DNA of 35,012 nucleotides, from positions 1 to 35,012 of IMG/VR virus record IMGVR_UViG_3300028610_000705; one strand, 5' to 3'. A program made the position numbers and the translations under genes. The notes below the pieces were generated by a model. That model did not search any database and had not been told where the DNA came from. It saw only the letters and a list, made by a program, of their open reading frames with translations. Positions 3,672 through 15,008 of the stretch are shown here, one piece after another. The stretch is from a virus. How positions within the stretch are numbered: the stretch's first letter is position 1; each line of letters opens with the position of its first letter.

Positions 3672-3881
3672 ATGAACTGCATAGCCGATCTATCCCAATG
3701 CCAGAGCGAGGCCGAGTTGTGGAAATCATTTAAGGCGAACTGGCGCAGGGTGGAAGCAATTCCCCCTATAAACAAATATTATACATGGTTCGATTTATGC
3801 GCTACTGATACGGGCACATTATGGGAATTACTCAAAATCTACTGGAATAACCGAAGGATAATAAGGGGCGCGGATAAATGA
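3672..3881 (+). CDS. hypothetical protein, 69 aa
   Basis: A 69-residue protein, rich in tryptophan (about five) and aromatic residues. It starts at ATG 3672, with AAGGGG (3661-3666) five bases upstream. An in-frame upstream start at 3600 would lie before the promoter and is rejected. No domain recognised. The sequence suggests a small helical fold (AELWKSFKANWRRVE, LWELLKIYWNNRR). First gene of the operator-controlled unit that includes the phosphatidyltransferase-like and methyltransferase genes. Its end overlaps the next start by 4 bases. Confidence 0.65.
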   Translation: MNCIADLSQCQSEAELWKSFKANWRRVEAIPPINKYYTWFDLCATDTGTLWELLKIYWNNRRIIRGADK

Positions 3882-4537
3882 GTTATAAAATATTTGTTGA
3901 GGATCTAGAATATTTCCAGCAGTTAGAAGATAAGCGCACTGGCCGCGTTTACAACATGGACAACTTCGGGCATTGGCTCCGAGTCGCTTCCAGGCGATTA
4001 ACGTATGTATTCTATCGGGTCGGCTTGCATGGCCCTCATATCCTGCTGGCGCATTTCGTCGCTGAGTTGATCGCGGTTTATTTCGTATTCACCGAAAGGC
4101 CGCTGATTGCTATTTCGCTATGGCTGTTTAGTTATGTACTCGACAACTGTGACGGCGATCTAGCAAGGGCCAGGGGCGAGGCTAAGCCAGGATGGGGTGT
4201 AATTGATGTATTGGGGCATCTATGGGCGAATATGCTCTATTGGCCTGTTCTGGGCTATTTAACAGGGGCTTGGCCTGTAGTCTGTGCGATACTTTGCTTG
4301 CGGGTAATCATGGAAATGCACCGAGGGCAGCACAAAACGACGGGCGACAGGTACGGCGAACGCTCAAGGCTCTGGCGGTGGGTGGTACTGCCGACGGATA
4401 TAACGATCATGTACATGCTGTACGTGCCGTTTGCGCTGATCGGGCATATTGAGATTTATTTATACTGCTATTTGGCGTATTTTGGATTGGCCTCGGTTGG
4501 TCAATCGATGGTAATGATTTGGAGGGTTGCGAAATGA
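3878..4537 (+). CDS. CDP-alcohol phosphatidyltransferase-like membrane enzyme
   Basis: A 219-residue integral membrane protein with several hydrophobic spans. It carries the CDP-alcohol phosphotransferase signature D-x2-D-G-x2-A-R at residues 89-97 (DNCDGDLAR). The family reaction transfers a phospho-alcohol between CMP and an acceptor, as in phospholipid head-group synthesis. The rest of the motif is altered. The usual Gly after eight residues is Trp106. Asp110 is kept. The fourth Asp, regarded as the catalytic base, is His114. It may therefore be a diverged or re-purposed enzyme that modifies host lipid. A methyltransferase lies two genes downstream. Starts in an ATGA overlap. Confidence 0.75.
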   Translation: MSYKIFVEDLEYFQQLEDKRTGRVYNMDNFGHWLRVASRRLTYVFYRVGLHGPHILLAHFVAELIAVYFVFTERPLIAISLWLFSYVLDNCDGDLARARGEAKPGWGVIDVLGHLWANMLYWPVLGYLTGAWPVVCAILCLRVIMEMHRGQHKTTGDRYGERSRLWRWVVLPTDITIMYMLYVPFALIGHIEIYLYCYLAYFGLASVGQSMVMIWRVAK

Positions 4538-6654: not shown

Positions 6655-7182
6655 ATGGCTGGGAAGCCCAAATATAAAGACGCGAAAACAGAGTATGTAC
6701 AGACCCCAGGTAAGGGAATTGGGCTTCGAAAACTCGCGATACAGTGGGGGATACCGTTACGGACAATTGCAGGACATTCCAAGCAAGGCGGTTGGGTTTC
6801 CCTTCGTGAGCAGTATCACAACACTGTCGCAACACACTCGCGGAGCCAAGCAATTGCTGTTACGGCTGATAAACAAGCCCATATTAATATCAAGATTGCT
6901 GAAAGTCTCGTTTTGTGCGGTGATCTTGTGCATAAATGCCTTAAAACCCTCAATAAGCCACTCACCGATAAGAACTTTGGCAAGTTCAAATCTGCCGACC
7001 TTATACTCCGTAGCGTCAAATCAGCCACAGAAAGCATTAACAATCTCGACATCAGAGTTAAAGAAATCTATGGACCTGGAGATAGCAAAGACATCACTCC
7101 AGCAGATATTGCCGCAGCGGTTCGCGCCCTTGCGTTATCACAAGGAACAATACCGACTATTCCACGCTCCGAAATCAATTAG
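6655..7182 (+). CDS. terS: terminase small subunit
   Basis: A 175-residue protein directly upstream of the large terminase. The N-terminus carries a helix-turn-helix typical of phage small terminases: GIGLRKLAIQWGIPLRTIA followed by HSKQGGWVSLREQY. The middle is helical (oligomerisation) and the C-terminus is a probable large-subunit contact. The family forms a ring that recognises the packaging site and delivers DNA to TerL. AGGGGAAG about 4 bases before the ATG supports the start. The large subunit overlaps its last 113 bases in another frame, which is long but tolerable for a compact phage. Confidence 0.8.
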   Translation: MAGKPKYKDAKTEYVQTPGKGIGLRKLAIQWGIPLRTIAGHSKQGGWVSLREQYHNTVATHSRSQAIAVTADKQAHINIKIAESLVLCGDLVHKCLKTLNKPLTDKNFGKFKSADLILRSVKSATESINNLDIRVKEIYGPGDSKDITPADIAAAVRALALSQGTIPTIPRSEIN

Positions 7183-8389
7183 ATTTAGAATAGTATCGGC
7201 AGGCAGACGTTCCGGCAAGACCGAGAACGCCAAGCGATTCCTTGCACTCGAAGCGATGGAAAACGAAAACCACCGCTATGCAATATGTGCGCCTATTCGT
7301 CCACAGGCTAAAGCGATTTATTGGGACGATATGAAAGCCTTGCTTAAAGGCTCTTATTTGCCGTCGGGCGTATCTAAAACAGATTTATCTATCACGCTAA
7401 CCAACGGCACATTTATACAATTATTCGGGCTTGGTGGTAGTGGCGCAAACTCAGGCGCAGCCGCAAGGCTTGAGGGTACACCGTGGCATGGTGTACTTAT
7501 CGACGAATACGCCAAATGCCCGCCAGATGTTTTTGAAACCAATATCAGACCAATGCTTTCCGAGTTTAAGGATAGTTGGTGCTGGTTTGTAGGCAAACCC
7601 ACTGGGCGAAATCATTATTATGATTATTACTTGCGCGGGCTTTCAGATGATTACCCCGAATGGGATTCATATACATGGCCTAGTATTGATATTCTTGATC
7701 CCGAAGAAGTGGCCTCGGCCCAGCGCGAAATGGACGAGCGCACCTTTAGGCAGGAGTACGAAGGATCATTTGAATCGTATGAAGGGCTGCTTTACTATAA
7801 TTGGGATCGTAAGTATATCCGGCCGTTAGTCGAGGAGCCACTTTTACCGCTATGGATTACGAGCGACTTTAATAAATCGCCTATGAATTGGAACATCGCG
7901 CAAATTCCGTATGTTGGCAACATCCAACATTGCCGAATAATCGACCAAATTGACATAGCGTTTAACGCCAAAACGCCGCAAGCAATCGAAATGTTTATCA
8001 AGCGATATAAGCACAGGGAATATAAAGTAGTCTACATCACCGGGGATATGTCCGGCAGTCACGAATCGCATAGGGACTGGACGACCGATTACGCAATAAT
8101 GGGTACGGCACTCGAAAATGCAGGGTGGGAAGTTATCTGGCGCGTACCGAAGAAAAACCCTGGCATTAATAACCGGGTAAACGTCGGGTGCAGTATCATC
8201 GCACATGATCGACTACTAGTTGATCCTAAATGTACCCGGCTAATATATGATTTTGAGCGCAACGAGGGCGACGGCAAGGGCGCAAAAGATAAATCTGATC
8301 TTCTACAAACCCACGCCTCAGATAACTTTGATTATTTGATGTGGGCCGCATTTGGAAACCAATTCTTCGGATCGAAAGTAACACAATAA
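7070..8389 (+). CDS. terL: terminase large subunit
   Basis: A 439-residue packaging motor. The N-terminal ATPase has an adenine-binding region (LRYHKEQYRLF), Walker A GRRSGKT at about residues 45-51 and Walker B VLIDEY at 142-147 with Asp145 and Glu146. The coupling motif is WFVGKPTGR. The C-terminal RNase H-like nuclease shows candidate metal ligands Asp266 (ITSDFNKSP), Asp326 (ITGDMSGS) and Asp418 (HASDNFDYLMWAA). ATG 7070 gives a normal-length protein. The frame stays open much further upstream, but that part is only a shadow of terS. The ribosome-binding site at 7070 is weak, and a TTG at 7130 is an alternative start. Confidence 0.92.
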   Translation: MDLEIAKTSLQQILPQRFAPLRYHKEQYRLFHAPKSIRFRIVSAGRRSGKTENAKRFLALEAMENENHRYAICAPIRPQAKAIYWDDMKALLKGSYLPSGVSKTDLSITLTNGTFIQLFGLGGSGANSGAAARLEGTPWHGVLIDEYAKCPPDVFETNIRPMLSEFKDSWCWFVGKPTGRNHYYDYYLRGLSDDYPEWDSYTWPSIDILDPEEVASAQREMDERTFRQEYEGSFESYEGLLYYNWDRKYIRPLVEEPLLPLWITSDFNKSPMNWNIAQIPYVGNIQHCRIIDQIDIAFNAKTPQAIEMFIKRYKHREYKVVYITGDMSGSHESHRDWTTDYAIMGTALENAGWEVIWRVPKKNPGINNRVNVGCSIIAHDRLLVDPKCTRLIYDFERNEGDGKGAKDKSDLLQTHASDNFDYLMWAAFGNQFFGSKVTQ

Positions 8390-8638
8390 GGTAATATTAT
8401 GAGTGAGAGATTGTTAGAAATACTATATGATTATCATAAGACATCCTTTGATGATTGGTCATTAACGGCAGAGACAGTCAAGAAAATTGATGTCCTTTAC
8501 CAATCCCAACTTGTTGAAGCCAACACCGAGATAGCGAAACTAGAAAAGGAATTATGCAAGACGTATAATTCTGTTGCCGAAATGTTAAACGAGTATAGAA
8601 TTAACCATCCAACCGAAATTAATGGGTAATATTATGAG
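8390..8638 (+). repeat. 14-bp direct repeat flanking the small gene between terL and portal
   Basis: GGTAATATTATGAG occurs exactly at 8390-8403 and again at 8625-8638. Each copy covers the ribosome-binding and start-codon region, the first of the 8399 gene and the second of the portal. The 235 bp between equivalent points is exactly the small gene. Recombination between the copies would remove it and leave terL joined to the portal with an intact start. Confidence 0.8.
8399..8629 (+). CDS. small coiled-coil protein, 76 aa
   Basis: A 76-residue, wholly helical, charged protein with a coiled-coil-like stretch (VEANTEIAKLEKELCK). It lies between terL and portal and is bounded by a 14-bp direct repeat that includes its own start region, so it looks like an inserted or duplicated cassette. 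AAGG upstream (TAAGGTAATATT) could serve as ribosome-binding site. No family recognised. A virion or packaging accessory role would fit the position, without direct support. Confidence 0.65.
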   Translation: MSERLLEILYDYHKTSFDDWSLTAETVKKIDVLYQSQLVEANTEIAKLEKELCKTYNSVAEMLNEYRINHPTEING

Positions 8639-10202
8639 CACTTTGAATTTACGCGAAGCATCACAACAAGCACTATCAGGACATATTGCCCAAGTGACAC
8701 ATGACGACCTAGACATTAGAAAAACTAAAGCCGAATTGCGCGACTTGTTTCTGGATATGGATTCAGGGGTAATCACAAGCGTTTTGAAAAGTGATTTATC
8801 GAAGTATATGGATGTCAAAGACATTAATAACATGCGTATTATATCGCTAGATCAGTACGTCGAGGTATTCATGCAGAACCTTTTGCATGTCTACGATTCA
8901 CAGCCTGCGGTGACGTTTACGCAAGAAGCCACAGAGGAACTTGACGACGACGGCAACCCGGCTATACCAGAGGAGTCCGAGGATCAAACCCGCTTCCGGG
9001 CATTGCTTGAGGAAGTCAATATTACCGAAGTATTTAGAACTAATCTAATCCAGGCCCGGCTACACAATACCACGCTCTGCGAAGTGAAATATAACAAGAC
9101 CCGAAAAAAGATGTTTGTGCAAACTGGCTTTAATATAGGCAATTCATGGGTAAGCCCGTTCGATGATTTCTGGACTGATTGGGAAGTATTCGCCTACGAA
9201 AAAATTACCGCCGATGATACTCATGTATGGGTTGTATGGGATAGGATAGATGAAGATACGACAGAGGTTTATTTGTTTACTACGAAAGAATCTGTATGGC
9301 CCAATTTCAGCGCAACAGATAAGAATAAGCACCTAACTAACGGCGATAAAACGCCACTGCCAGGGAATGAAGATTTTGTCTATCCTAAAGCCGAGGGTAG
9401 CGATATGGACTCGCCAATCATTACCTATCGCTATAACAAGCATACGGATTTCTGGGGCAATGGTATGGATTCGCTGATCGAAATAGTACGCTCTGTAAAT
9501 GTGTTACTCTCGGTTGCCAATGATGATACGATCCAAGAGACTATCCGGCTGTTAGTATTAAACTTTCACCCTACCGGAAGTACGGGCGAAAAGGCGCAGA
9601 TTAAGGGTGGCATTAGAAACCCAATTACTGCAGGTAATCCAGCACCAGGGCAAGACAACGACCCGAAAATGCAACTATTGCAAGCCGAATTATTCAACGA
9701 TGATATTATAAAATTCGTTGAAACCTTGCTAGATATGATCTCCAATATGTTCGAGATCGACAACCCAATAGTGAGCGACGTTAAAGAAACGCTGTCAGGG
9801 ATCGCTCTACGGCTTCGTGCGGAGCCTTTAATGCAGCACTGGCGGGAAGATATAGGCCGGGTAATGAAGCCCGATATGGAACTACTAGAGGCGTTGATTA
9901 ACGTCAATAATCTAAACCGCCCCAAGAATCAGATTGATGTAAAAATACTGGACTCTATTTTGCTGGACTATGTAGAGCCAAACGTAGTAAAGGACGAGGA
10001 GGGCGAATTTGCTCTGGAAGTAAAAAAATGGCCCCTTGGTTTAAGTAACCCTGTCCTATGGGCGCAACGCCAAAACCGTGAAATGTCAGCAATCGAGGCG
10101 AAGGCGTGGATCTTGAAAAATAAACAGGTAACTAGCGAATTACAGGGACAAGCCCTCAGTCTACGAACCGAAGGTTTATCAGAGCCGGGGCTTGATGTAT
10201 AA
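8634..10202 (+). CDS. portal protein, SPP1 gp6-like
   Basis: A 522-residue protein immediately after terL, the usual place for the dodecameric portal through which DNA enters the capsid. Family-like features are a long central wing region, IVRSVNVLLSVANDD, then a stem helix (DDIIKFVETLLDMISNMFEI), then SGIALRLRAEPLMQHW, which closely resembles SPP1 Gp6-type portals. The C-terminal 100 residues are helical and end in a flexible tail. ATG 8634 is chosen over the in-frame ATG at 8622 because GGGTAA just upstream mirrors the repeated start of the preceding gene. The stop TAA is part of the 10-bp repeat bordering the SpeD/DUF3326 cassette. Confidence 0.85.
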   Translation: MSTLNLREASQQALSGHIAQVTHDDLDIRKTKAELRDLFLDMDSGVITSVLKSDLSKYMDVKDINNMRIISLDQYVEVFMQNLLHVYDSQPAVTFTQEATEELDDDGNPAIPEESEDQTRFRALLEEVNITEVFRTNLIQARLHNTTLCEVKYNKTRKKMFVQTGFNIGNSWVSPFDDFWTDWEVFAYEKITADDTHVWVVWDRIDEDTTEVYLFTTKESVWPNFSATDKNKHLTNGDKTPLPGNEDFVYPKAEGSDMDSPIITYRYNKHTDFWGNGMDSLIEIVRSVNVLLSVANDDTIQETIRLLVLNFHPTGSTGEKAQIKGGIRNPITAGNPAPGQDNDPKMQLLQAELFNDDIIKFVETLLDMISNMFEIDNPIVSDVKETLSGIALRLRAEPLMQHWREDIGRVMKPDMELLEALINVNNLNRPKNQIDVKILDSILLDYVEPNVVKDEEGEFALEVKKWPLGLSNPVLWAQRQNREMSAIEAKAWILKNKQVTSELQGQALSLRTEGLSEPGLDV

Positions 10203-11561
10203 TGCATAGGAGAAATATGTACGGCAAAAGCATTAGCGTTGATCTACATAACTGTAACTCGGAACATTTCAACAGGCGGGATTTACGAAGATTCATTAAA
10301 ATTCTATGTGTTGAGATAGATATGATCCCCGCTAAATTAGTGTGGTGGGATTATGGGGGCGACGAGCAGTCTAAAGCAGAAGCCCCACCCCATTTAAAAG
10401 GCGTATCTATGGTGCAATTTATCGAAACTAGCACTATCGTTATACACACTTTGGATGATCTTAAGGCGGTGTATTTAGATTTGTTTTCATGTGGTGAGTT
10501 TGACGGAAAGGCCGCAGCACAATTTGTAGCGGATTATTTCGAGGGCGACATAGTAACCTTTAATGAAGTAGGGCGGAAATGAATACAGTTTTTATCGTGC
10601 CGACAGGCATAGGTGCTGAGATTGGTGGACACGCAGGGGACGCGATGCCAGCCGCTAATTTAATTGCCTCAATAAGCAATTTAATGATTACACATCCAAA
10701 TGTATATAATGCGTCGGATATAAATGAAATTCCCGCAAATGCCTTATATGTCGAAGGCAGTATGCTAGATAATTTTTTGAGCGGGCGACATGGCTTAAAA
10801 AAAGTATTTTCAAATAGGATTTTAGTTGCCGTTAATGCTCCTGTCAATCCAGAGACAATCAACGCTGTTTCGGCTGCTCGTGCTACATTGGGGGCGAACG
10901 TCTCGATTGTTGAATTAGAGACACCGCTTGTAATGGAGGCAAGGATTGAAAATGGATTGGCTACGGGCAGTATTGCCGGACATAAGCAATTATGTCAACA
11001 GGTTTCGGCCCTTGAATTTGATGCGCTTGCCTTGGCTACATCAATTACATTCCCATCTAGTGAGTCCAAGAAGTATTTTCGAGAGGGTGGCGTAAACCCT
11101 TGGGGGGCAGTGGAAGCAATGGCCTCAAAACTTATTAGTAGCGAGTTAGGCAAGCCTGTGGCTCATGCACCGATAGAGCATGAAGAAATGATGCTTTTCA
11201 ATGAAGTTGTTGACCCTAGAATGGCAGCGGAAATGGTATCGCTTGCATATATACATTGTGTACTCAAGGGATTGCATAAAGCCCCTCAAATTGGTGATGA
11301 AATCTATTCAAATGATGTTGATTGCTTGATAACGCCAGCGGGATGTTGTGGCCCTCCTCATATGGCCTTTATTGCTATGGGCAAACCAATTATTGTAGTT
11401 AAAGAAAATACAACAATTGGGGACGAAAAAATCATCTATAAAAATTTAATATACGTTGAAAATTATTTAGAAGCCGCGGGAGTCGTCGCTGCAATTAAAG
11501 CAGGGATTTCTATTGAATCACTCTCTAGGCCCCTAGCCTCAACTAAAGTTTTGTATAATGC
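10196..11561 (+). repeat. 10-bp direct repeat flanking the SpeD-like/DUF3326 cassette
   Basis: TGTATAATGC is present exactly at 10196-10205 and 11552-11561. Both copies include a TAATG element. The first holds the portal stop and a spurious ATG. The second holds the start codon of the gene at 11558. Removing one copy plus the DNA between them would join the portal stop to the 11558 start as an ordinary TAATG junction. This suggests that the two-gene cassette was inserted at that point. Confidence 0.7.
10217..10582 (+). CDS. SpeD-like pyruvoyl-dependent decarboxylase (AdoMet decarboxylase family)
   Basis: A 121-residue protein, the length of single-chain prokaryotic AdoMet decarboxylase proenzymes. 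It aligns by eye with that family. The autocleavage region is TSTIVIHT, with Ser72 at the pyruvoyl-forming serine and His77 at the processing histidine. LDLFSCGE then places Cys92 at the catalytic acid. GVS before the cleavage site is also kept. The residue before the serine is Thr instead of the usual Glu. The family makes decarboxylated SAM for spermidine synthesis, but some homologues act on arginine or ornithine, so the substrate is open. ATG 10217 is chosen for AGGAG at 10208-10212, although the gap is short. Coupled by ATGA to the DUF3326 gene. Confidence 0.75.
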   Translation: MYGKSISVDLHNCNSEHFNRRDLRRFIKILCVEIDMIPAKLVWWDYGGDEQSKAEAPPHLKGVSMVQFIETSTIVIHTLDDLKAVYLDLFSCGEFDGKAAAQFVADYFEGDIVTFNEVGRK

Positions 11562-11565
11562 CTGA
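10579..11565 (+). CDS. DUF3326-like protein
   Basis: A 328-residue protein matching, from memory, the DUF3326 family known mainly from cyanobacteria and other bacteria. Recognisable stretches are VFIVPTGIGAEIGGHAGDA near the N-terminus, THPNVYNASDINEIP, ALYVEGSMLDNFL, NPWGAVEAMASKLIS and LITPAGCCGPPHMAF with VVKENTT. The function of the family is not established to my knowledge. The conserved Gly-rich motifs and paired CC suggest an enzyme. It is unusual among structural genes. It overlaps the SpeD-like gene by ATGA and its base composition looks more AT-rich than its neighbours (not computed). The two probably act together. Confidence 0.7.
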   Translation: MNTVFIVPTGIGAEIGGHAGDAMPAANLIASISNLMITHPNVYNASDINEIPANALYVEGSMLDNFLSGRHGLKKVFSNRILVAVNAPVNPETINAVSAARATLGANVSIVELETPLVMEARIENGLATGSIAGHKQLCQQVSALEFDALALATSITFPSSESKKYFREGGVNPWGAVEAMASKLISSELGKPVAHAPIEHEEMMLFNEVVDPRMAAEMVSLAYIHCVLKGLHKAPQIGDEIYSNDVDCLITPAGCCGPPHMAFIAMGKPIIVVKENTTIGDEKIIYKNLIYVENYLEAAGVVAAIKAGISIESLSRPLASTKVLYNA

Positions 11566-11809
11566 AACGATCATCGCAAAAGAAGCAAAAATGACGGTGA
11601 TTAACGAGCAGATTGCCAAAGATGCGCTATTACTTTTGAAGGCGGTTGATATGCGTAAAGTATTGGACGATCCTAATTTTATGGACGAATTGAGCCGGGA
11701 ATTTATTAGGCAGCACATGGACGATATAAAAAAGGGATTGAAGGTTGGCGATGAATTGGTAGATTTGATCTTGAGTAATAAGGCGTTGAGGGAGCAACAA
11801 AATGACTGA
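11558..11809 (+). CDS. hypothetical helical protein, 83 aa
   Basis: An 83-residue helical, charged protein without recognised domain (DELSREFIRQHMDDIKKGL, VGDELVDLILSNKALREQ). The ATG at 11558 lies within the 10-bp repeat bordering the inserted cassette and has no strong ribosome-binding site now. Before insertion it would have followed the portal stop directly as TAATG. ATG 11591 is an alternative start. It sits between the cassette and the peptidase gene, overlapping the latter by 8 bases. A small head or packaging accessory protein is possible. Confidence 0.6.
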   Translation: MPETIIAKEAKMTVINEQIAKDALLLLKAVDMRKVLDDPNFMDELSREFIRQHMDDIKKGLKVGDELVDLILSNKALREQQND

Positions 11810-12287
11810 GATAGTGAAACAATATGACAATTGGTCGTGCATGGCCTGTGTTGCCGCAATGATTACAGGCGAAACCCTTCAGGATGTAGTTGATTTTGTA
11901 GGGCATGATGGGTCGGCAGTAGTAGAATGGTCAGATCATCCAGATAAAAAAGAAGGCTTTCAACTGTATGAAATTGATCAATATTTAATGTCGCGGGGAT
12001 ATTCTTTTGCAGCAGAATTAACAGTAAGGGATCAGGCGCAAATTGGCGACAAGAGTGTTGATTGTGAAGTTGATTTTTCACTGGCTATGGTATTGATTGC
12101 AAAAAGCCCAAGCCTAGAGGGTTGCACCCATGCAATGTATTGGGATGGACAGACGGTATTTGATCCAAAGCCAGATGTAATAGGCCATAGATTATTAAAA
12201 GATTATGAAATAATTAGTCTGCAAATTGTCCACGAATATGGGCCACGCGAAAGGCTTTCTTGGCATGATAGAAAAGCCGCTGGATAA
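11802..12287 (+). CDS. C39/papain-like cysteine peptidase
   Basis: A 161-residue protein with the order of a C39/papain-type peptidase. Gln7 lies six residues before the candidate nucleophile Cys13 in NWSCMACVAAMI. His110 in GCTHAMYWDG and Asp121 in VFDPKP complete a Q-C-H-D set. The His-strand-turn-strand-Asp pattern is characteristic of the fold. A bacteriocin-transporter role is excluded by the absence of a transporter. Possible roles are virion protein processing, cell-wall or peptide cleavage at lysis, or a host-directed protease. GAGGGAG seven bases before the ATG is a strong ribosome-binding site. Confidence 0.65.
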   Translation: MTEIVKQYDNWSCMACVAAMITGETLQDVVDFVGHDGSAVVEWSDHPDKKEGFQLYEIDQYLMSRGYSFAAELTVRDQAQIGDKSVDCEVDFSLAMVLIAKSPSLEGCTHAMYWDGQTVFDPKPDVIGHRLLKDYEIISLQIVHEYGPRERLSWHDRKAAG

Positions 12288-14075: not shown

Positions 14076-15008
14076 ATGGCCGTAACAAAAGCCTCGGATT
14101 TAACAGACAGTCAACGCGAACAGATGGAAGTAGCATTTTTCATGCAAAATCAGCAAATGCTGGTTTATGATGATCTTGTTACCCACGATCTTGGCGTAGA
14201 TGGTGTATCTACAAACCTCCCTGAATATGGGAAATTGGCAGTTGCTACCACTCCGTTAACGGATGGTTCAATCACTGCATCAACGACTCTCACCGACACC
14301 CCACATATCATAACTCCGGTTGAGTATGGTATCGTAACCCAGCCCTCCAAACTATCGGAACTTGTTACAAGTAATAAGTCTCGCGTAGCCGCTGGCCGGG
14401 CCGTTGCTATGAACGCTGCGGAAACCCAAAACGTGCAGGGCTATACGGCCTTGGCAGCATCAACCAATATCATCCTTGCAAATGACGCGGCTTCGGTTGC
14501 GGCAATTGATGAGAATGATACAGTTCAGGATCGGGACATCAAAGATGCCGTTGCTGAATTGGCGGCGTTGAACGCAATGCGCTTCCCGTTTACGCTTGGC
14601 GAAGGCAGCAAACCAGCGTATGCAGGCGGCGTACATCCTTACGTAGCAGATGATATTCGCTCTCTAACTGGCTTTATTGACGCTATGAAATATGCAGATG
14701 CCATGCGGTTGATAACAGGCGAAATCGGCACTTATGCTGGTGTACGCTTCTTTGAAACCACAGGCAACGTTGCCTCGGCTGACGCGGGCGCAGGCGCAGT
14801 TGATGTTTATACGACTGTCATATTCGCCTTGGGCGCATTGGGCAAGGGAACTAGCCTAGCCCCTCACTTGATCGTTAAGCCTAACGGTGCAGATGGTCAA
14901 AATCGGACAGTATTCGTGTCCTGGTACGGCGTTTATGAATATGGCATCATAAACCAGAGTTCGTTGTATGCGATTAAATCCGCTGCATCACTCGGCGCAA
15001 ACGTTTAG
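14076..15008 (+). CDS. major capsid protein
   Basis: A 310-residue protein following the scaffold. The sequence has the HK97-fold capsid pattern of the N4-gp56/P22-like group: an Ala-rich helical segment (SRVAAGRAVAMNAAETQNVQG), a central P-domain-like region (HPYVADDIRSLTGFI, RLITGEIGTYAGVRFFET) and a C-terminal half ending RTVFVSWYGVYEYGIINQSSLYAIKSAA. This order (GxxxGVRF..., then WYGxYEYGI) is typical of the family. It forms the icosahedral shell. The Shine-Dalgarno is weak (GAAAG), but a strong -10-like element lies upstream. Confidence 0.85.
   Translation: MAVTKASDLTDSQREQMEVAFFMQNQQMLVYDDLVTHDLGVDGVSTNLPEYGKLAVATTPLTDGSITASTTLTDTPHIITPVEYGIVTQPSKLSELVTSNKSRVAAGRAVAMNAAETQNVQGYTALAASTNIILANDAASVAAIDENDTVQDRDIKDAVAELAALNAMRFPFTLGEGSKPAYAGGVHPYVADDIRSLTGFIDAMKYADAMRLITGEIGTYAGVRFFETTGNVASADAGAGAVDVYTTVIFALGALGKGTSLAPHLIVKPNGADGQNRTVFVSWYGVYEYGIINQSSLYAIKSAASLGANV

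Follow-up and report, generated by a model that had tools for sequence, protein, structure and literature searches.

A SpeD-like decarboxylase gene coupled to a DUF3326 gene in a phage head region, and recurrence of the pair with exchanged decarboxylases in phages, bacteria and archaea

A gene for a SpeD-fold pyruvoyl decarboxylase and a gene of the DUF3326 family stand next to each other in many unrelated phages, bacteria and archaea, and the decarboxylase is repeatedly exchanged for members of unrelated families, which points to an unrecognized small metabolic pathway. The reading that we favour, and to which we give an even chance, is that the two proteins form a conserved two-enzyme module in which an ornithine-like or aminocarboxypropyl amino acid is decarboxylated by a pyruvoyl enzyme and DUF3326 makes or presents the substrate. 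More tentatively, the pair could represent an unrecognized pathway to a decarboxylated aminocarboxypropyl or diamine product, with unrelated families supplying the partner step, located in the packaging/head module of phages and in Septu and envelope-stress operons of some bacteria and archaea. SpeD homologues whose substrate has changed are already known from phages. In a literature search that had most subscription journals outside its reach, DUF3326 turned up in only two papers, and the SpeD–DUF3326 pair, the decarboxylase swaps and Septu with a decarboxylase turned up in none. The exchange of the partner between unrelated decarboxylases narrows the chemistry of DUF3326 to one small compound class, testable in E. 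coli, and the pair connects a polyamine-type pathway with phage packaging regions and with a known defence system, Septu.

The window, by which we mean the whole stretch of DNA analysed, is an entire IMG/VR record of 35,012 bases. Its SpeD-fold decarboxylase gene (gene 1; 10217..10582, + strand, ATG at 10217 and stop TGA at 10580-10582) encodes the 121-aa protein P0001, and its DUF3326 gene (gene 2; 10579..11565, + strand, ATG at 10579 and stop at 11563-11565) encodes 328 aa. We place the start of gene 1 at 10217 and not at the upstream ATG at 10202 because an AGGAG ribosome-binding site, read from the sequence, lies at 10208..10212 (+ strand). The ATGA start–stop overlap of the two genes, given in a preliminary description of this DNA and read again here at 10579..10582 (+ strand), couples them, and a further open reading frame (ORF) starting at 11558 overlaps the 3′ end of the DUF3326 gene. 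The pair sits inside the terminase–portal–head region of this phage, with the large terminase upstream (6695-8389; PHROG 2, 6e-32) and the major head protein downstream (14076-15008; PHROG 1357, 1.7e-33). The earlier placement between portal and head genes thus stands as regards the head operon, whereas the portal, a 526-aa ORF at 8622-10202 with no profile match, is called by position only. Two genes past the pair, a 161-aa ORF (11802-12287) has a cysteine-peptidase-like look and a weak match to PHROG 5845 (2.8e-4); at 3878-4537 lies a 219-aa membrane protein with a sub-threshold match to CDP-alcohol phosphatidyltransferase (0.069), unusual for a phage if real. No tRNA genes were found in the window.

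The SpeD-like identity of P0001 is borne out by matches to Pfam AdoMet_dc (PF02675; 4.3e-15, 56 bits, cut-off 25) and to PHROG 3125, ‘S-adenosylmethionine decarboxylase’ (1.7e-13), whereas its 33 bits against the AdoMetDC equivalog TIGR03330 fall far short of the cut-off of 75.65. Alignment confirms the self-cleavage Ser72, the processing His77 and the catalytic Cys92, which together with the fold are common to bacterial SpeD class 1b, and likewise the loss of the usual Glu before the cleavage site, where Thr71 stands. The cleavage-site stretch reads IETSTIVIHTLDD, compared with IAESH..IHTWPE in canonical SpeDs of the same genome survey, and the window protein is without the Trp-Pro that these carry after the catalytic His-Thr. 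The pattern is general among 81 pair-type SpeD proteins (Ser72 in 81, His77 in 81, Cys92 in 80, Gln67 in 77 and Thr71 in 72), across which position 79 is Leu, not Trp. PMC10407285 lists Gln, Thr, Phe and Tyr as hallmarks of the ornithine decarboxylases derived from SpeD and reports for true AdoMetDC a fully conserved Pro, the position of which we deduced from the text. Measured against that description, the window SpeD lacks the Pro and holds two of the four SpeDC diagnostic residues, Gln67 and Thr71 but not the Phe or the Tyr; its Thr78 and Phe95 compare with HF and CKPY in the SpeDC-like proteins L286-L288, at positions deduced from the text and from these sequences. The arginine decarboxylase of pelagiphage HTVC201P, a validated enzyme, likewise carries the Gln and the Thr.

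Phylogenetically, the pair-type SpeDs are one clade (97/99), whose neighbours are SpeDC-like proteins of Omnitrophota and planctomycetes; canonical SpeDs are separate from it (99/98), with class 1b on the opposite side. The sister of the clade is an Omnitrophota SpeDC-like protein, in a comparison set that represented SpeDC by SpeDC-like proteins. This Omnitrophota SpeD2 adjoins a canonical SpeD in its genome, and ornithine decarboxylases encoded in such arrangements have been validated (PMC10407285). The SpeD of phage phiN3, a validated AdoMetDC (PMC9992855), also joins the pair-type side, loosely and by a long branch, which means that position in the tree does not by itself amount to proof. 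Judged by residues and branching, P0001 appears to group with the SpeD-derived ornithine decarboxylases. It resembles the SpeDC and SpeDA proteins of phages and bacteria (PMC9992855, PMC10407285) in fold, in the Ser/His/Cys set, in Gln67 and Thr71, in neighbouring branches and in phage occurrence, and differs in its separate clade and the missing Phe and Tyr; the DUF3326 partner goes unmentioned in PMC10407285.

The product of gene 2 is a clear member of DUF3326 (PF11805; 6.7e-76, 256 bits, cut-off 25, profile positions 2-336 of 337), as had been proposed. We know of no function for the family, whose members are spread over cyanobacteria, phages and many phyla of bacteria and archaea. The sole earlier context that we noted is a cyanobacterial neighbourhood with fed3 and DUF650 (PMC4284462). 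The window protein is a short form, lacking the approximately 90 residues by which most cellular homologues are extended at the N-terminus, and retains the near-invariant family residues. Across 135 DUF3326 sequences, the near-invariant polar residues are mainly Asn and the acids Asp47, Glu50, Glu59, Asp148, Glu179, Glu218 and Glu298, together with His196 and Lys230; the acids would be compatible with a cationic substrate. An AlphaFold2 model (mean pLDDT 92.3) has two Rossmann-like domains, for which Foldseek returned no confident relative (best E 1.4e-3, superposition poor). A likeness to ornithine carbamoyltransferase, seen at weak Foldseek ranks, was unconfirmed by VIA-align and was set aside. 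VIA-align related the N- and C-terminal part to GT-B/UDP-GlcNAc-epimerase-type domains and the middle part, in both models, to lumazine synthase, each at a middling Z (about 9). A DUF3326 sequence search against the PDB and a search of the model against a viral structure library gave no matches.

The recurrence of the pair in viruses is extensive. P0001 by itself gave no matches as a query of viral contigs, and an alignment was required; a two-sequence DUF3326 alignment returned 54 viral DUF3326 loci, and AdoMet_dc was present in 45 of the 50 records of that first set, mostly directly upstream of DUF3326. In a wider scan of 67 viral DUF3326 loci, a pair-type SpeD lay within 5 kb in 58 and within 50 nt in 48, with the exact −4 ATGA overlap in 18 of the 58 pairs. 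Counted from the SpeD side, DUF3326 stood nearby in 50 of the 77 viral loci of pair-type SpeD and was absent from the flank in the other 27; 4 viral DUF3326 loci, like the planctomycete short-form loci, had no adjacent decarboxylase. Since lone loci of both genes exist, neither strictly requires the other as neighbour. The adjacency is nonetheless not chance, and far beyond it, and the earlier view of the pair as one unit is upheld. A tblastn search found no DUF3326 in 50,697 annotated phage records. In phages, the genes immediately beside the pair or beside a lone SpeD most often match families of terminase, portal (several unrelated families), minor head, head-morphogenesis and protease genes; the packaging/head-side position is thus recurrent and not peculiar to the window phage. 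Such a position would fit late expression and a polyamine role in packaging, but would also fit a common site for cargo genes.

The strongest evidence that the partner acts on an amino acid and that DUF3326 belongs to its pathway comes from the exchange of partners. Our scan of cellular genomes retained 80 of 188 DUF3326 loci. Cellular DUF3326 proteins fall into two groups, a short form like that of the window and a long form with about 90 extra N-terminal aa. Some short-form genes adjoin SpeD, and several of these loci may be prophage; those of planctomycetes and their relatives have no decarboxylase beside them. Among 51 long-form loci, the gene directly upstream is of the SpeD type in 23, an NspC-like PLP decarboxylase in 21, never both, and neither in 7, two of which lie at a contig edge; a decarboxylase thus stands directly upstream in 44 of the 51. 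The PLP partner, of a fold unrelated to SpeD, is a divergent NspC (carboxynorspermidine/carboxyspermidine decarboxylase), which matches the carboxynorspermidine decarboxylase model TIGR01047 at 3e-75 but under its cut-off (232-337 versus 409 bits), and whose nearest solved structures are carboxynorspermidine decarboxylases; each of the 10 NspC-type genomes searched held exactly one strong NspC match. On the DUF3326 tree the SpeD label changes 11 times, at least 7 of them forced by well-supported branches, and the NspC label 9 times, at least 4 of them so forced. The same slot is filled by a phosphatidylserine-decarboxylase-like gene in one phage lineage (L046) and by an ornithine-cyclodeaminase-family (OCD) gene in one (L266 and, across an intervening small HNH-like ORF, L275/L276). 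Because unrelated enzymes replace each other in a fixed slot, the partner is expected to act on an amino acid, and DUF3326 to belong to the same pathway.

The substrates of SpeD and NspC relatives are 4-substituted 2-aminobutyrates (SAM or carboxynorspermidine) or ornithine, and the common denominator of the partner families is the head of an α-amino acid. An NspC at the same position probably does the same step as the SpeD type. In the pathway that we favour, P0001 would cleave itself at Ser72, converting this residue to a pyruvoyl group with which it would decarboxylate an amino acid. The substrate is most likely something other than SAM: a diamino acid resembling ornithine, or an N-linked 3-amino-3-carboxypropyl compound of the carboxyspermidine kind. 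DUF3326 would be a dedicated partner enzyme, whose most likely task is to make or present this substrate. An OCD-family gene in the partner slot better fits an order in which DUF3326 acts before its partner, and we take it to be about evenly balanced whether DUF3326 makes or presents the amino acid and the partner decarboxylates it. The output would be an amine or a polyamine-type product, which phages may use late, around DNA packaging. In the aminopropyl installation of microcin C7 (MccD/MccE), one enzyme adds a 3-amino-3-carboxypropyl group and a decarboxylase trims it to aminopropyl; the proposed module would work in a like manner, by analogy only.

A different division of labour, which we consider possible but on the whole unlikely, would make gene 1 an ornithine (or arginine) decarboxylase yielding putrescine or agmatine, and DUF3326, acting after it, a new kind of polyamine synthase or modifier, which is the direction taken in the preliminary description. 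Both kinds of SpeD-derived decarboxylase have been described from phages and bacteria, in gene clusters that include downstream polyamine genes (PMC9992855, PMC10407285), Gln67 and Thr71 are shared with the HTVC201P arginine decarboxylase, acids make up most of the near-invariant charged positions in DUF3326, in keeping with the needs of a cation-binding site, and the head-gene position agrees. An OCD-family enzyme in the same slot, however, is not expected to yield a diamine. Moreover, in 7 of the tested genomes with the pair, a further SpeD, of the canonical kind, lies next to a match to spermidine synthase, so there the pair is neither the usual way to spermidine nor needed for it.

Septu-linked operons raise the question of defence. 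Using PADLOC to identify PtuA and PtuB, we found 12 ptuA–ptuB–partner–DUF3326 operons, with SpeD in 8 and NspC in 4 (L059, L085, L086, L089, L099, L101, L103, L105, L109, L110, L121 and L126), spanning several bacterial phyla and one archaeal metagenome-assembled genome. PADLOC has no models for their decarboxylase and DUF3326 genes, and the four genes may constitute an extended Septu defence system. The module might then make a group that modifies nucleic acid (DNA or tRNA) and protects it from Septu-type nucleases, with phages carrying the modification part alone as counter-defence. Septu is reported to cleave tRNA-Tyr (PMC13096335), and the short-form, phage-rich DUF3326 clade holds one Septu-linked member, L059. 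Yet ptuA and ptuB are absent from most cellular pairs, no nucleic-acid-modifying enzyme was found linked to the pair, and the window has no PtuA- or PtuB-like ORF and so does not qualify as Septu (PtuAB) by its genes, all of which leaves this explanation improbable.

Eight further operons have a glutathionylspermidine (GSP)-synthetase-like gene with the partner and DUF3326 (SpeD in 3, NspC in 5; L092, L106, L111, L116, L117, L124, L129 and L132), often together with PspA, DUF350, DUF2170 and a potassium channel. AdoMet decarboxylase genes have been linked to related GSP-synthetase/PspA/DUF350 operons (PMC11237479), which, along with the AdoMet_dc fold, the catalytic residues and the loose placement of phiN3 SpeD on the same side, would suit gene 1 as a divergent SAM decarboxylase and DUF3326 as an aminopropyltransferase acting on decarboxylated SAM in place of SpeE. 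Against this stand the sub-equivalog score, the missing canonical Glu, Trp and Pro, the branching on the ornithine decarboxylase side and the swap for PLP enzymes whose family acts on amino acids. We consequently rejected the SAM decarboxylase reading of gene 1, and with it decarboxylated SAM as a product, which the preliminary description had offered, and regard this alternative as very improbable. That there is no common pathway, the two metabolic genes co-travelling by chance or as a cargo cassette, would suit the phages that carry just one of them but is already strongly disfavoured, to the point of being scarcely credible, by an adjacency found in phages, bacteria and archaea and by swaps that repeatedly leave an enzyme of amino-acid metabolism in the position just upstream of DUF3326.

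Several arrangements at individual phage loci are worth recording. A homing-endonuclease-like ORF (HNH or GIY-YIG by eye) lies between SpeD and DUF3326 in L008, L012 and L016, and in large phages the SpeD domain forms the C-terminal end of long proteins directly upstream of DUF3326 (L050:4273-7983, 1236 aa; L047:5467-7320, 617 aa). Phages with a lone pair-type SpeD include L146, L164, L173, L175, L191 and L204, several of them with SpeD beside portal or terminase genes. In Microcystis phage MaAM05 (L137), speE and agmatinase cluster with a pair of SpeD genes, the second of which may encode an arginine decarboxylase; this set apparently covers nearly all of the way from arginine to spermidine.
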